Below, piece by piece: positions 56,487 to 64,000 of a DNA stretch of 64,000 bases; the first letter of the stretch is position 1, and the number at the start of each line of letters is the position of its first letter. The stretch lies in the NCBI GenBank assembly GCA_905250025.1, contig CAJNOJ010000185.1:140971-204970 (forward strand), given 5' to 3'. This DNA comes from Adineta ricciae (lineage: Eukaryota > Rotifera > Eurotatoria > Adinetida > Adinetidae). A program made the translations under genes and the position numbers. Under the pieces are notes generated by a model. That model was not told the origin of the DNA. It saw only the letters and a program-made list of their open reading frames with translations, and did no database searches.

Positions 56487-57587
56487 TTATCGAACACTTA
56501 GGTCGCGCTCTTTCAAACTTTTGATAACCATTTCCCTGTTGAAAGTGGTTATCTCTTTGGTGCACAACATTATTTCCACTCTTTCTTGTTTGACTGCGCA
56601 CACCACATCAACTGTCTAAACACAATCGAATTTCACTCCACACAAAGATCAATTTTATACTCACTCGTTGATCATCCTTTTTCGAAACCACAGTGTAAAC
56701 ATTCTGTTGATGCTTTCATGAGCTTCAAAATATACTAATAAGAGAACATCGTTCATATTGATATTCTGCAAATATTCAATGGAAACATCTTATCCGAAAC
56801 TGTTCCATCAATAACAGCACGTTCTCCATGAACACCTTCAGTTTCGACTACACCTGACTGCGCCGCAACTTGCCAACTAACTCCTGAAGCTTGTACAGCA
56901 ACCGGACTATCCCAATATGAAGTCTTCGACAACCCAGCATCTACCGGATTTGGCAGAGTGGCAGCCAAACGAGGAAAGAAATTCGAATCATCTTTATCAC
57001 TAGAAACAGGCCGTCGTACCGTACAATACATCGAAACCTAAAGGATGTATTAGAGATGAGCGTCTCTCGAGTCTCTGTAAACGAAGAATGCCTTTATTCG
57101 AAAAACATCGCCAAACATGTAAAAAGAGAAACTATGTGAGCGATAGAGAAAAACAGATGGTCGCGCATGTGAAGGTATGTACATATCTGTAACAGGATGG
57201 AATGATTTACAACGTTCACGATTGAAAAACCGAACTCACCACGGCCTGGCTGTGCAACAACAGATTGNTAACAACGAGCAATCGAACTTACTAGAAGGTG
57301 TGAAGCGGAAGTGACATGGAGGAGAAGGGGCGTTCGCTGGTTGCTAGTATGATAGAATAGTGAAAATTAATATGCAAGAAGGGTATTACTTCGGATATAG
57401 ATCGACTGTTATTGTCGGGTTGGATGGTGACGTTTGTGATTTGTTGGCAGAAGCATCGCATTTGCCAACGGTTCTTAAATTGGATCGTGGTTGTTGAGCA
57501 TGGATGGCAAATAATATGGAGGCAATTTAACGCGATTTGCGTGCTTGCTGATTCTCCGCATGCGGAGCAAACTCGGTTGGATTCCAT
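56487..57587 (-). CDS. RING-like zinc-finger protein (family copy 2), interrupted by single N
   Basis: Exon 1 (57390-57587, 198 bp, the same length as copy 1) starts MESNRVCSACGESASTQIAL and carries NCLHIICHPC and MRCFCQQ in the same RING-like spacing as the gene at 27387-27900. Exon 2 begins QPANAPSPPCHF, matching the Pro-rich second exon of copy 1, and hits the N at 57268. On the far side, further phase-compatible exons encode VSMYCTVRRPVSSDKDDS, WDSPVAVQASGVSW, VHGERAVIDGT, NVYTVVSKKDDQR and TVDVVCAVKQERVE, ending at a TAA at 56487-56489. The reading frame across the N is not certain. Probably an E3-ligase-like protein. It is divergent from the F-box-like gene 359 bp away. Confidence 0.55.
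57268..57268. other. Single N inside the RING-like gene
   Basis: A lone N without an obvious flanking duplication. It interrupts exon 2 of the RING-like gene, so part of the coding sequence may be missing or misjoined. Confidence 0.7.
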
Positions 57588-57946
57588 AGCAATTGTTTAA
57601 TCTAAAATGAGGAAAATACGTTTGAGTTGAACATAAAGTGTGGAGAGATTAAAGCTAATCGTAAAAATTGAGATGGAATAGACTATCAGTGTATTTCGTT
57701 TCGATATATGTTCGTAATTTACGTTCATTCATATCATAGTCATTTTTCTCGGTACACGTGATACTGTATACATTCATAGTAGGAATTTTGTTTCCGTTCT
57801 GCTCTTTCTCGCAGTTCGATTTTGTTTCGCCTCTATTAAATTTACTTTATCTGGCTTTTTCGTTGACTAGAACACGTGAATAAATCTAGCAGTATTTCGT
57901 ACATTTCATCGCATACATTGTAGCGACTGGCTTTTGAATCGTTAAG
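57588..57946. promoter_or_regulatory. Shared upstream region of RING-like and F-box-like genes
   Basis: 359 bp between divergent start codons. It contains CACGTG-like elements (GTACACGTGAT near 57755 and GAACACGTGAA near 57871). The repeated CACGTG is the only motif that stands out; its role is not shown. Confidence 0.3.
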
Positions 57947-59406
57947 ATGTATAAGCCAAAAAAGAAAGTATGCTACGAATTCTTCCGTCATGCTATTTGT
58001 ATCAATGAAAGAATAAGTTCATGTGATTACATCATTTTCCGAATGATTGATTATCGAATGACCGATATTTCGAAGTTAATAAGAGAAAGACTACTTGAGA
58101 AGTCAATGATGATACCGTTGACTAACCCCCTGCATACCGAGGAGATTTTCGTTCTAGATAGTCCATTCGATGTAATTCGTCTGATGTTGACACCACACTT
58201 ATCCATGACTCTAAAACATTTGCATATTATTGTACGTGGTGCTCAAAATATGACCTATTTTCATGTACCGAATAAGCATCGATTAGTTGTTATGAAACAG
58301 CTGGAGACTTTCACATTTGTGAAATCTTTTATATGGAAATTTGAAAACGAGTTGCAATTTATTGAACTATTAACAAGTGCAGATATAATGCCAGTATTAC
58401 GACGAGTAAATTTATCGATTGCTCTTGATACTGAGGAATTGAACCGAATCAAACAAAGCTCGATTTTCGATGATTATCGATGCATTGATGTGCATTTCGC
58501 GCTACATATAGTTGATGTTAATGCAAGGTTTGGGCTATTGAATTTGATTCCACGCGGTAGCACTTCTCATCCCAGAGATGTAAGAGGTTCGGTTTTCATG
58601 TTTAGTTATTGGTACGACGTCGGTTATTCAACTTCTGTTGAAAGTAATCGGGTAAATTCAATTTGAGCTGAGAAATCAAAGCTATTCATTTTTTGTCATT
58701 TTAGCGATCTCGATATAAATATGATCGGAAATGGTTATGGTATACTCTTCCATGGTCATTCGAAAAATTCTTTCAAATACCACTTTTAAATCAATGTGAT
58801 ATTGAAAGAGAACTCTATGCATCACCGTCATCATCTAATATAATCGTATCATCTGATATTTCCACATTAAACGAACAAGCTAATCTTTCACTACTACGTA
58901 AATATGTACCTGTGGGTTCCATACTTCTTGGAAGGAAGGATGAATATTTTAAGGAAGCTAATATAAATATTCGCATAACAATTCCGTCTGACCGTATCAT
59001 TTCAGTCGACTGTTTAGACAGTCTAAATAGTTTTATGTACACAGGAAATCTTCGTTCCATTCATATTATCTTAACATTTTCAATTTTCACCGGTACTCTT
59101 AATTGGAAATTCTTACGTTCATTTTCAAACCTTTCATTGCTGAAATCATTACGCATAACCCTCCACAGTGGCGAAGTTTTGCTCGACGATGAACACTGCC
59201 GATTAATTGTCGAGAGAGTACCAATGCTCATCGATTTTGTATTCTGCTTCCGGGGAAATCTTGGTTTTTTGAATAATGATGGTCCATTCAACATTTATGG
59301 AAAATCTATTTTGAATTTATACCAACATATTCGTATGGCAATTGCCAATCGCACGCACAAATATGTTATTGAACCAGATGGATGTGGATTGATGGTTTGG
59401 TTATGA
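57947..59406 (+). CDS. F-box/LRR-like multicopy family protein
   Basis: Two exons (57947-58651 and 58705-59406) join in phase to 468 aa. The sequence is a run of amphipathic leucine-rich segments (TLKHLHIIVRG, MKQLETFTFVKSFIWKFENE, VLRRVNLSIALDTEELN, LSLLKSLRITL, VPMLIDFVFCFRG) ending EPDGCGLMVWL. A paralog, now a pseudogene, lies at 25270-26601. In related copies an F-box-like N-terminus precedes this part. Here the first 60 residues (MYKPKKKVCYEFFRH) do not clearly form an F-box, so the 5' end may be truncated or the start misplaced. Such proteins usually act as SCF substrate adaptors; that role is inferred from the family type only. Confidence 0.65.
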
Positions 59407-60321: not shown

Positions 60322-62841
60322 AACGATGGTTTTTTCCAACATATTTGTCGTAATTTACCTTCGCCGAAAGAGAGAGGAAAAGCGGCTTATAAGCTTTCAT
60401 TCAAACCTGAGGAAGTAGTCTATGTACATGAAAAAGAATCGAGTCTTGACATAGCTTTATCATATGAAAGGTCGAAAAAAGGTAAGTAGACACGTTCTTT
60501 GGTTTCCTAAGAAATACGAGAAATATTTTAGTGTAAAAGAGAAAAGCATCAACGTCGAATGACAATATTTCACTTGTTTATCTCAAGTGTTTATTTAATA
60601 TTGTCCAATATTATAAAATTTCATGAGATTTCGTGCGAAATCTTTATTAATTTATATTTTGAAATCGATTATTTTTGTAAGTGAAAGTTTTGTGATAGAA
60701 TTCGAAATAAATCCCTCCTTTTAGATAAAACTTTGACTAATCAACAAAAAAGGTATCGACGCGAGAATAGTTTAACAGATTTACATGAATTAATTGTTGA
60801 AAATCGTGAAAATCGAATTCGACATGCCATTTCTATGGATATTTCACTAAATCTTGTTGATCATTCCTTTCAAACTCCATTATATTACGCATGTCAACGA
60901 GGTCGTACAAAGCTTGTTCAATATTTACTCGAACACGGTGCTCGACACGATCTCTTTGATCTCAATAGAATTTCACCATTATGGATCGCATCAAAACAAG
61001 GTTTTCATGAAATTGTTTTACTTCTTCTTGAACACGGTGCTGATCCAAATCATCGATCTATTGATCAAACAACATCTTTATATCAAGCATCATATTACGG
61101 TCATCTCAAATGTGTATATCATCTTATTCGATATAAAGCTCGTGTTGATTATGCCAAAAATAGTGGTGCATCACCTTTATTTGTTGCGGCAAGAAATGGT
61201 TTTCATCGAATTGTAAAACATTTGTTAAAATTCGGTGCCGATCCGAATCAATGTCAAGAAGATCTTCGATCACCTCTACATACAGCCTTATTAAATAATC
61301 GTGTGAGATGTGTTCGAATTCTTCTTCGACATATTAATATCGATTGTTTAATTCAACAAAAAGATATTTATGAATGGAATCATTTTCATTTTCTTGCGAA
61401 AAAAGGAAGTTACAAATCCGCTCGTGTTTTGTTTCATCATTTGAAGAAAAAACAAAAAGAAATGAACTTTAATGAACAAGATTCATTTGGAAATACACCA
61501 ATTCATATTGCTTTATTCAACAAGAAAAGTAAATTTCTTCAATATTTACTTAAGAAAAATGTTGATATAAATCAACCGAATTGTTTCGGATGGAATTATC
61601 ATCAATTGAAATTGAAATTCGAAGAATCTTTGAATTTGAACATTTGTCAATCAAAAGATTACTTTGAAAATTTATTATCAATTCATTTAATCAAATATAC
61701 AGATGAAGATCGATTAATTAGTGAAGAAATTCAATGTTATGTTAAAGAATTACTTACAGTTATTGAAAGAATAAATCCTTTATTTCGTAGTGAAATCATT
61801 TGTAGTGGATCATTTTATGAAAATACTCGTGTTGGTTTACCTGATGAATTTGATCTTATGATCGATTTAATTGAAATTGAACATTTAGCGAAGTTTATTG
61901 AGGTGAATTCTGATCCACCGGGTTACGGGCGATTGTATCCTGATGATAGTTACGAAGCTTTTCGAAGATTAGTTTTCTATTTAGATCCCAAAACATCCTG
62001 TCTTTCTGCTGAGAAAATTCGCAAACAATTCTATCAACTTTTAACATCTGCACGATCCTCTGTGATTAATCGAGAAACTTCCTCACATTTTAAACATTTG
62101 AAACTTGAATGGACAAGTGATGATAAACAATGTGGAACAGCTATTCATGTCGAATGGTATGGTGTTCAATATCCATATTTATCAATTAAAATTGATGTTG
62201 TTCCTTGTTTAACAATTTATTCATGGCCTCGAACAGCAACATTTGATTGTCCATTAGAAAAACATCAATTTCATATTATTCCTCGTAGTCCACAAGTTAA
62301 TGAAAGTTTTCTTTGGCGAATTTCTATGTCACAATTGGAATCAATTCATTTACAAAACATTTCATTAAATCAAAAAAATGGATATTTAATTTTAAAATGT
62401 TTAAGAATTTTATTTCCATTTAAAAGTCACATTGGAACATCAATTTATACAAATGAAGATCTCTTAACATCATATATGTTTAAAAATGAATTTTTTCATG
62501 AATTATATCGATTTCCATTTGAATCTCAATGGATTAATGGAAGTTTGACTCATCGAATATTTGGAATTCTAAAGCGTTTACATAAACATTTACTTCTTGG
62601 CTCAATTAATTCATTTTTTATTCAAAATTATAATATTATTGATTTAAATGAATATAAACAAATTCGTTCAATTGAAATTCAATATCTTCGAACAATTCTT
62701 TCGCATTTAAAAGAAAAATTCGATTTTATCCAAAAGACATCTTTACGTCGACATACAATTACTCATCTCGGATCAACTCAACGAAAACCTCGACTCAGAC
62801 AACGTGCATTTACTCATTTTCCTGAATTTCAATCATTGTAA
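60322..62841 (+). CDS. Ankyrin-repeat protein with cGAS/Mab-21-type nucleotidyltransferase domain
   Basis: The main exon (60725-62841) joins in phase to an upstream open exon ending at 60481 (LSFKPEEVVYVHEKESSLD). No ATG was found in that exon, so the true 5' end is unresolved and 60322 is only the limit of the open frame. About seven ankyrin repeats come first (TPLYYACQRGRTKLVQYLLE, SPLWIASKQGFHEIVLLLLE, SPLFVAARNGFHRIVK). The Mab-21/cGAS domain then shows CSGSFYENTRVGLPDEFDLM. Counted from codon 60733, GS is 359-360 and the metal-binding Glu372 and Asp374 match E225/D227 of cGAS. The third carboxylate, Asp488 in IKIDVVPCL, is also present. The full triad suggests an active cyclic-dinucleotide-type synthase. 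The cGAS zinc thumb is not seen, as in other cGAS-like receptors. The tail is basic. Confidence 0.85.
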
Positions 62842-63314
62842 AAGACTTTCTTGTCACTCAAATCATTTTTCACTATGAATTTTCTCGATCTGATGACTCT
62901 CAAACTGAACTCTTCCTTTGAATTATAATCCACAATGCATTTTTCACGAATATTTTCCAACTTATCTTTCTAAGTTTATTCTCTTTGACAGAGAAAATCT
63001 TAGTTCGTCTTTTCACTTTCTGAACACGTATGACTCGTTCTAGGATGGAAAAATTACATTTTTCCAACTTGTTTTTGTTAAAACAAAATCGATAAATGCT
63101 TCCTTATCGTTACTTACAATGACATTTTTTTTTATTTTTCCTTTATTTCAAAGAAAGAAAAACTACTTTAATGAGTCATAGGTATTTATATTTGTGAGGA
63201 AAGAAACAAAAAAGCGTCATTTTTGGCTGACTCAAAACGATGTTACATCGCAATGACATTGTGAAACATAACTTCACCTTTTTCCTTTGATATACCCGAT
63301 AAAATAAATCAATC
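62842..63314. other. Intergenic
   Basis: About 470 bp, AT-rich, between same-strand genes. Nothing coding is supported; the minus-strand ORF at 63176-63418 is a shadow over the next gene's start. Confidence 0.4.
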
Positions 63315-64000
63315 ATGTCCGATAACCAAACTTCGGCATCTGAGTTGTTTTTCGTAAGTAAAAAAGACTCATTCCCAATGAAAAAGCAGAGAAAATTTTT
63401 TAGAGAAATCCTCATCAATATTCTCCATTAATCCTTCATGCAAATAGTATTGCGAGTGGTCTTTTATTTAATTATTATTATTCATATCTCAATCGACAAA
63501 TTGGTTCAAGTATGACACACTTTTTTATTGATATTTTTATCGAAACTTTGTTTATTTTTAGCGAATAATATTTTTTTAAAATTCATTTTCAATGAAATTC
63601 TTTCTCGAGATTTATTTCCTTCGATAATTTTCGTCAAATTTCACACATTGATCGAAAAAAGTTTTCTTGAAAGTATTCCGTCGACTTTTGAATCTGATGA
63701 AACTGAATTAATTCAATCGAAAATTCTTCAATTGAAATTTGATGAAATTTCTCATGAAAATTCAACAACAATCGCGAATTATTCGTTAATTGGTGTTAAT
63801 GATTTTGGAATTTCTCTTCAATTAATTCGGATCTTTCAAGATGAATTTCGTCTCACTAATTTGACTGAAATTCAATTAAACGATGACATAAGACAATGGA
63901 ATTATCAATATTTTCCTTCATTATCCTCTGATTCGTAAATATTTTTCCTTTTGAAATATTTTATTTAAAGAATTTCTTTTAGAGAGAATGAAAACATCAA
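63315..64000 (+). CDS. Unrecognised protein, 5' part (runs off right edge)
   Basis: Four exons (63315-63353, 63404-63509, 63562-63934, 63983-64000+) join in phase from ATG 63315 (MSDNQTSASELFFRNPHQYS). The encoded part is helical with aromatic and Asn-rich stretches (LILHANSIASGLLFNYYYSY, FIFNEILSRDLFPSIIF, ISLQLIRIFQDEFRLTN). No signal peptide or clear membrane span and no recognised motif. The gene continues beyond the window. Confidence 0.55.

Follow-up and report, generated by a model that had tools for sequence, protein, structure and literature searches.

An ankyrin-repeat cGAS-like receptor gene adjacent to a STING-family gene in the bdelloid rotifer Adineta ricciae

In the bdelloid rotifer Adineta ricciae, a gene that joins ankyrin repeats to a cGAS/Mab-21-type nucleotidyltransferase (NTase) lies directly upstream of a STING-family gene, an arrangement best read as a physically linked pair of cGAS-like receptor (cGLR) and STING genes in an animal. 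Both genes lie at the end of the 64,000-nt stretch of DNA that was analysed, here called the window, which closes the 204,970-base contig C185 of a 130-Mb assembly, and a complete copy of the STING-family gene is present on another contig, C145. The preferred reading, to which we assign a probability of about 0.6, is that the fusion protein (ankyrin-cGLR) is a cyclase, probably triggered by a protein, and that the adjacent STING-family gene encodes its most likely receptor.

Results

Ankyrin repeats, a Mab-21 NTase domain and Mab-21_C were found by Pfam within one open frame of 702 residues (window 60733-62841, plus strand). Ank_2 was matched with E 2.2e-42, Mab-21 (PF03281) with E 2.2e-12 (47.9 bits, residues 361-541; cut-off 24.1) and Mab-21_C (PF20266) with E 3.4e-11 (43.6 bits; cut-off 24.1), and ankyrin and Mab-21 were the only families above their own cut-offs. 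A preliminary description of this DNA, made from the letters alone, had read ankyrin repeats N-terminal to an NTase in one gene and had proposed comparison with the PF03281 and ankyrin profiles; both profiles match above cut-off, and the reading stands. The effector names that NCBIfam attached to the ankyrin part were all far below cut-offs and reflect ankyrin repeats only. In the predicted structure the ankyrin region has a pLDDT mostly above 85.

The database model of the protein, P0001, comprises 759 aa, with two further 5′ exons beyond the 702-residue frame. Joining the three exons in Table 1 across GT-AG introns reproduced P0001 letter for letter. This A. ricciae protein is already present in NCBI/UniRef under the automatic name Mab-21-like and is 100% identical to the window frame. 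The coding start near 60322 given in the preliminary description found no support, the exons of P0001 beginning at 60464; an alternative start, MTIFHL, sits in exon 2. The hydrophobic N-terminus MTIFHLFISSVYLILSNII is a possible membrane anchor and resembles the N-terminus of the A. steineri protein (0 of 500 shuffles were as good). An anchor as a family trait was considered and rejected: comparable N-terminal hydropathy was seen in only 7 of 32 aligned rows, among which gene models differ, and similarity exceeded that of shuffles in only a few of 21 pairs.

Table 1. Positions of the ankyrin-cGLR and STING-family features in the window.
Feature	Position	Strand	Evidence
Ankyrin-cGLR exon 1 (P0001 model)	60464..60481	+	exon join reproduces P0001; GT-AG introns
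Ankyrin-cGLR exon 2, hydrophobic N-terminal stretch MTIFHLFISSVYLILSNII	60532..60676	+	19-residue hydropathy 1.82
Ankyrin-cGLR exon 3, ankyrin repeats and NTase up to stop codon	60725..62841	+	Pfam, exon join
Ankyrin-repeat region, residues 16-300 of the 702-aa frame, ~8 helix pairs	60778..61632	+	Pfam, predicted structure
cGAS/Mab-21 NTase core and Mab-21_C, residues 307-664	61651..62724	+	
GS motif (359-360) and predicted catalytic E372/D374 (DEFDLM)	61807..61854	+	alignment, codons checked
Predicted third catalytic Asp, D488 (IKIDVV)	62194..62196	+	alignment
Intergenic gap, ankyrin-cGLR stop to STING-family ATG, 473 bp	62842..63314	.	
STING-family exon 1 (MSDNQTSASELFF)	63315..63353	+	open reading, C145 comparison
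STING-family exon 2, STING helix-1-like IASGLLFNYYYSYL	63404..63509	+	helix-1 matrix
STING-family exon 3, no family match alone	63562..63934	+	open reading, C145 comparison
STING-family exon 4 start, gene cut by end of contig C185	63983..64000	+	comparison with C145 exon 4

The STING-family gene starts at 63315, on the same strand and 473 bp downstream of the ankyrin-cGLR stop codon. It lies just beyond the stretch covered by the preliminary description, which does not mention it. Searches of the rest of the assembly did not recover the remainder of this copy. Its visible part gave no Pfam match, no STING among its PDB matches (phmmer) and no hhalign match to the second STING domain of the C145 protein, and the AlphaFold prediction of exon 3 (pLDDT 41) was set aside; its STING identity therefore rests on homology to the C145 copy, with which it shares 82% amino acid identity over exons 1-3. 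Over 172 codons of these exons dN was 0.085-0.09 and dS 0.33-0.43, and the low dN/dS (∼0.2-0.28) suggests purifying selection on the gene. Scored with a matrix built from the first helices of four PDB STINGs, IASGLLFNYYYSYL ranked first among all 43,673 19-mers without a stop in the six frames of the window (37.75, the next scoring 28.5), and the second STING domain of the C145 protein scored 50.0 on the same matrix.

On C145 the gene has 16 exons, separated by GT-AG introns of 34-101 nt and joined in one open frame of 812 aa; the exons were picked by hand, and two acceptors, those of exons 7 and 12, depart from the usual pattern, as does the 34-nt intron. A frame change near exon 9 was considered as a lesion and rejected, being explained by a 55-bp GT-AG intron, letters of which began two of the C145 search queries. 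The 812-aa protein matches STING_LBD (PF15009) with 46.1 bits and E 4.6e-12 (best stretch 598-804; cut-off 27), and a second stretch passes the lax limit of E 10. The 3′ part alone matches the same family (38.5 bits, E 9.9e-10), and among its 16 PDB matches at E ≤10 there were 12 STINGs, the best a metazoan TIR-STING (E 0.013). By homology to this complete copy, the neighbour of ankyrin-cGLR belongs to the STING family. By eye, against the PDB alignments, a Tyr and an Arg of the STING ligand-binding site look kept in the second C145 domain.

The C145 protein appears from sequence comparison to carry two STING domains. Pfam found no family in its first 325 or N-terminal 452 aa alone, and neither these pieces nor exons 4-8 alone drew support from Pfam or the PDB. 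Pairwise comparison of module A (window exons 1-3) with 8efn gave a score of 47, which one shuffle in 1000 and one piece in 925 from other proteins also reached; with 6wt6 nothing was found, 968 of 1000 shuffles doing as well. For module B, made up of C145 exons 4-8, the score against the TIR-STING 6wt6 was 60 over 48 columns and was reached by none of 1000 shuffles or 568 pieces of other proteins; comparison with 8efn showed nothing, being equalled by 406 of 1000 shuffles. Comparisons of modules A-C, B-C and A-B gave scores close to chance, with 50, 295 and 148 of 500 shuffles, respectively, scoring as high. Since exons 4-8 resemble TIR-STING, the N-terminal half probably represents another STING domain that has diverged, a likely though unproven first domain of the protein. 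No PF23417 N-terminal transmembrane domain was listed for the 812-aa protein, and a six-frame genome search for PF23417 gave none above cut-off (best E 3.01; short exons hide matches). Residues ∼430-570, between the STING-like domains, look TIR-like by eye; the libraries do not confirm this, neither Pfam nor the PDB giving a noteworthy match and NCBIfam giving one at 19 of 440 bits.

The preliminary description had proposed a search for STING homologues in the same genome. As a six-frame profile search with PF15009 this found nothing above cut-off, the best match (E 2.23) falling in a repetitive 748-aa frame and being taken as chance; splicing the C145 copy of the neighbour revealed STING_LBD. 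The six-frame search was negative because the domain is split over short exons (39-373 bp), so further STING genes in this genome are possible.

Upstream of the STING-family gene on C145, blastn identified the final codons of ankyrin-cGLR together with its 3′ flank (200 columns, 74%, E 1e-33). This relic consists of a decayed end only, with its stop codon changed, and a PF03281 search gave no match on C145. The same order being kept as a relic, the genes were already linked before the two copies split; by this comparison their ancestor had the cyclase gene ahead of the STING gene, and the two linked copies represent one event, not two. Between the C145 relic and the STING-family gene lie ∼2.1 kb (L016 3443-5578) that are absent from the window copy. 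Window 57575-58155 and L016 2273-2854 share 97.6% identity, the STING-family stretch ∼77%; the 97.6% stretch possibly arose by gene conversion or recent duplication.

These data bear on the alternative that ankyrin-cGLR is active but signals to some receptor other than its neighbour, the two genes lying together by chance and the product acting elsewhere. Metazoan cGLR and STING genes are, by a published remark, often no longer linked (PMC12424679), the genome holds five other Mab-21 matches besides ankyrin-cGLR, and the linkage is seen in one species and one assembly. Against this, strong STING-family matches within the genome were obtained only at the window locus and on C145 (three more had E 0.2-0.5), the same gene order is preserved in the C145 relic, and a rough calculation for 6 NTase loci falling ≤500 bp from 2 STING loci in 130 Mb gives a few in 100,000. 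Chance adjacency is judged unlikely, and the linked pair is preferred.

The residues expected of an active NTase are present in ankyrin-cGLR. All 32 aligned rows share G, S, E372 and D374, and D488 is kept in 30/30 rows that reach that position; the 32 rows represent 31 distinct proteins, the window frame being part of P0001, and four partial relatives (P0121-P0124) stand outside this count. The preliminary description had recognised in GS, ExD (DEFDLM) and a third Asp (IKIDVV) the layout of cGAS, and these residues are located as it stated and conserved in relatives. D488 aligns with the second Asp of PIDVDLVPA in Cv-cGLR1. D374 and D488 are 113 residues apart, compared with ∼99 in Cv-cGLR1 itself (counted from the alignment), and the motif spacing quoted for cGLRs, X50-90 (PMC12424679), is narrower than that of ankyrin-cGLR. 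The best PDB sequence matches of the NTase were 8gjy ('cGAS-like receptor 1', E 2.8e-21), 8gjw (Cv-cGLR1, E 2.1e-16) and cGAS, and Mab21L1 was the last of 42. Cv-cGLR1 is an active enzyme, activated by dsDNA (PMC9980059). Structure prediction, which the preliminary description had suggested for comparison with cGAS, gave a model of ankyrin-cGLR with the bi-lobed cGAS fold.

In a tree of 41 rows, from which 5 of the 32 were omitted (P0001 as a duplicate, P0027, P0028, P0030 and P0037), 27 rotifer-type NTases clustered together (support 99/99), separately from the two Mab21L genes of this genome. With Mab-21 and Mab-21_C, a complete triad after GS and the predicted fold, ankyrin-cGLR is by sequence a cGLR, and by its retained active site and separate tree group it stands outside the non-catalytic Mab21L proteins. 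It would be expected from these residues to be catalytic and to synthesise a cyclic nucleotide. A non-catalytic Mab-21-like scaffold with a developmental or protein-docking role is improbable: Pfam Mab-21 models do match, and the superfamily holds Mab21L proteins that have no predicted functional active site (PMC9980059), but the invariant acidic residues, the position in the tree and the ranking of cGLRs and cGAS ahead of Mab21L1 in the PDB all argue for an enzyme.

Among the other Mab-21 genes, that on C147 (L005) has a frame of ∼900 aa with GSS...DFDFM and DADLVPAIRLDFW motifs and may, from these motifs, be a second active cGLR. Its internal exact repeats and undetermined residue look like assembly artefacts, and its row was too long-branched for placement in the 41-row tree. 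L004 (C828) and L006 (C734) are a near-identical pair of diverged Mab-21 genes, of which L004 contains the motif GGDMDIMF and lies next to a Cys-rich frame resembling a zinc finger; L001 (C29) and L002 (C10) are closely similar copies of one ordinary gene of Mab21L type.

The preliminary description had favoured a sensor of nucleic acid and had suggested that the ankyrin part supplies recognition or regulation in place of a missing zinc thumb. Across the region that aligns with mouse cGAS, no Cys/His thumb is indeed seen. The helix matching the DNA-binding spine of cGAS is net negative (-2 to -7) in 32/32 rows, and the pI of the NTase is 6.03-9.1 (median 8.34, 30 rows) and 6.42 in A. ricciae. 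With no zinc thumb in that region and no basic spine, ankyrin-cGLR is by sequence not a cGAS proper, and the acidic helix together with the absence of a thumb there speaks against a cGAS-like DNA platform. A cGAS-style nucleic-acid sensor in which the ankyrin repeats stand in for the thumb is accordingly improbable. The predicted cGAS fold, the sensing of DNA or RNA by several animal cGLRs (PMC9980059) and the basic NTase pI of many relatives, above 8, would be compatible with it; the acidic spine, the low pI in A. ricciae and the STING-paired choanoflagellate cGLRs, which need no nucleic acid (PMC12424679), count against it, and the claim of nucleic-acid sensing is left unsupported. Ankyrin-cGLR probably senses protein, and its ankyrin repeats, likely the sensing or regulatory part as first proposed, would bind a protein, as such repeats usually do.

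In a protein search with the 702-aa frame, ankyrin and Mab-21 occurred together in 28 of the best 120 of 1852 matches, and all six of these 28 that carry an organism name are from Adineta or Rotaria; the remaining, metagenomic proteins are presumably of rotifer origin as well, by their similarity. P0030 (Didymodactylos), listed without a Mab-21 domain, is by alignment a truncated relative, and the listed Adineta vaga relative, P0037, is either a chimaera or a faulty gene model and does not continue past the EFD motif. Searches with the NTase only (26 of 26 matches and the best 120 of 207) listed no ankyrin Pfam domain outside the rotifer-type group, and the two named matches outside that group among those listed were both corals. 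Protein searches are limited by length, so that larger fusions would escape them. A scan of viral contigs confirmed no relative, and the best 50 matches in a viral fold library bore no cGAS-like names, being ankyrin, uncharacterised or unnamed proteins. Within the aligned sequences, the active site of ankyrin-cGLR is conserved across bdelloid rotifers. Horizontal acquisition of a bacterial CBASS operon, which an operon-like layout and the richness of bdelloids in acquired genes (PMC11258130) might suggest, is very improbable given an NTase of Mab-21 type, a metazoan TIR-STING as first PDB match of the STING domain, introns in both genes and one scan of prokaryote contigs that confirmed no relative.

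Discussion

Modelled on cGAS-STING and on the choanoflagellate pairs, the linked rotifer genes would act in one pathway. The ankyrin part would detect or dock a protein, a pathogen or damage cue, releasing the NTase, which would then make a cyclic dinucleotide; the STING domains encoded by the downstream gene, the most likely receptor, would bind it, and binding would lead to a defence output. A narrower form of this proposal, an operon-like bdelloid pair in which a protein-sensing ankyrin-cGLR signals to the adjacent two-LBD STING, perhaps from one trans-spliced transcript, is put forward tentatively, at a little short of an even chance. In bdelloids of two species more than half of transcripts carry a spliced leader (PMC1925144), which makes a shared transcript of the two genes possible.

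Adjacency gives guilt-by-association evidence on which receptor hears which enzyme, and the linked rotifer pair would be an exception inside animals. If the reading is true, the linkage of cyclase and receptor survived, or re-formed, within the animal kingdom. Three questions become directly testable: which cue the ankyrin-cGLR detects, what role two ligand-binding domains play in one STING, and whether linkage in animals was retained or arose anew. A fungal pathogen of bdelloids is known, and the host response to it has been profiled by RNA-seq (PMC11258130), so that the pathway is open to assay.

Comparison with known systems

Fusions of ankyrin repeats to cGLRs and linked cGLR-STING genes in choanoflagellates are both already known. 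The preliminary description had considered the fusion possibly undescribed; cGLRs with ankyrin repeats, including one from the coral S. pistillata, had been reported by Li et al. 2023 (PMC9980059). Their ankyrin- and TPR-fused cGLRs belong to the same superfamily and include the same ankyrin and cGLR fusion, and such fusions are a minority, 87% of cGLRs having no appended domain; in the available passages of that paper the only mention of rotifers concerns TLR loss. The words 'rotifer', 'Adineta' and 'ankyrin' do not appear in the main text, as available, of a survey of eukaryotic CD-NTases and STING (PMC10732462), and no report of a linked cGLR-STING pair or of a two-domain STING in rotifers was found in searches of open-licence papers.

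Among solved structures, Cv-cGLR1 (8gjw) and the 8gjy cGLR are closest to the NTase in sequence, with the third Asp aligned in 8gjw; the dsDNA-activated Cv-cGLR1 (PMC9980059) is represented there by a chain that starts at residue 288. The metazoan TIR-STING 6wt6, nearest to the STING domain of the neighbour by sequence, has by name one TIR and one STING, whereas the rotifer protein carries a pair of STING-like domains around a middle region for which no TIR match was confirmed. Bacterial CBASS systems with STING effectors likewise place a cyclase gene next to a STING gene, but they use another NTase family (SMODS-type), have no introns and form a true operon, so that the likeness is in layout only.

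The closest parallel is in the choanoflagellates M. brevicollis and S. macrocollata, in which, according to a 2025 preprint (PMC12424679), adjacent cGLR and STING genes act together. The choanoflagellate cGLR needs no nucleic acid to make 2′3′-cGAMP, which is bound by the neighbouring STING. These genes are likewise adjacent, separated by 178 bp in M. brevicollis, and the cGLR has a complete catalytic triad; unlike the rotifer pair they are not animal, ankyrin is not mentioned in the preprint's available text, and the M. brevicollis genes are mutually antisense. The rotifer genes lie 473 bp apart on the same strand, with a STING that apparently has two ligand-binding domains, and compared with the fusions of Li et al. 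2023 the rotifer ankyrin-cGLR forms a conserved lineage beside a STING-family gene.
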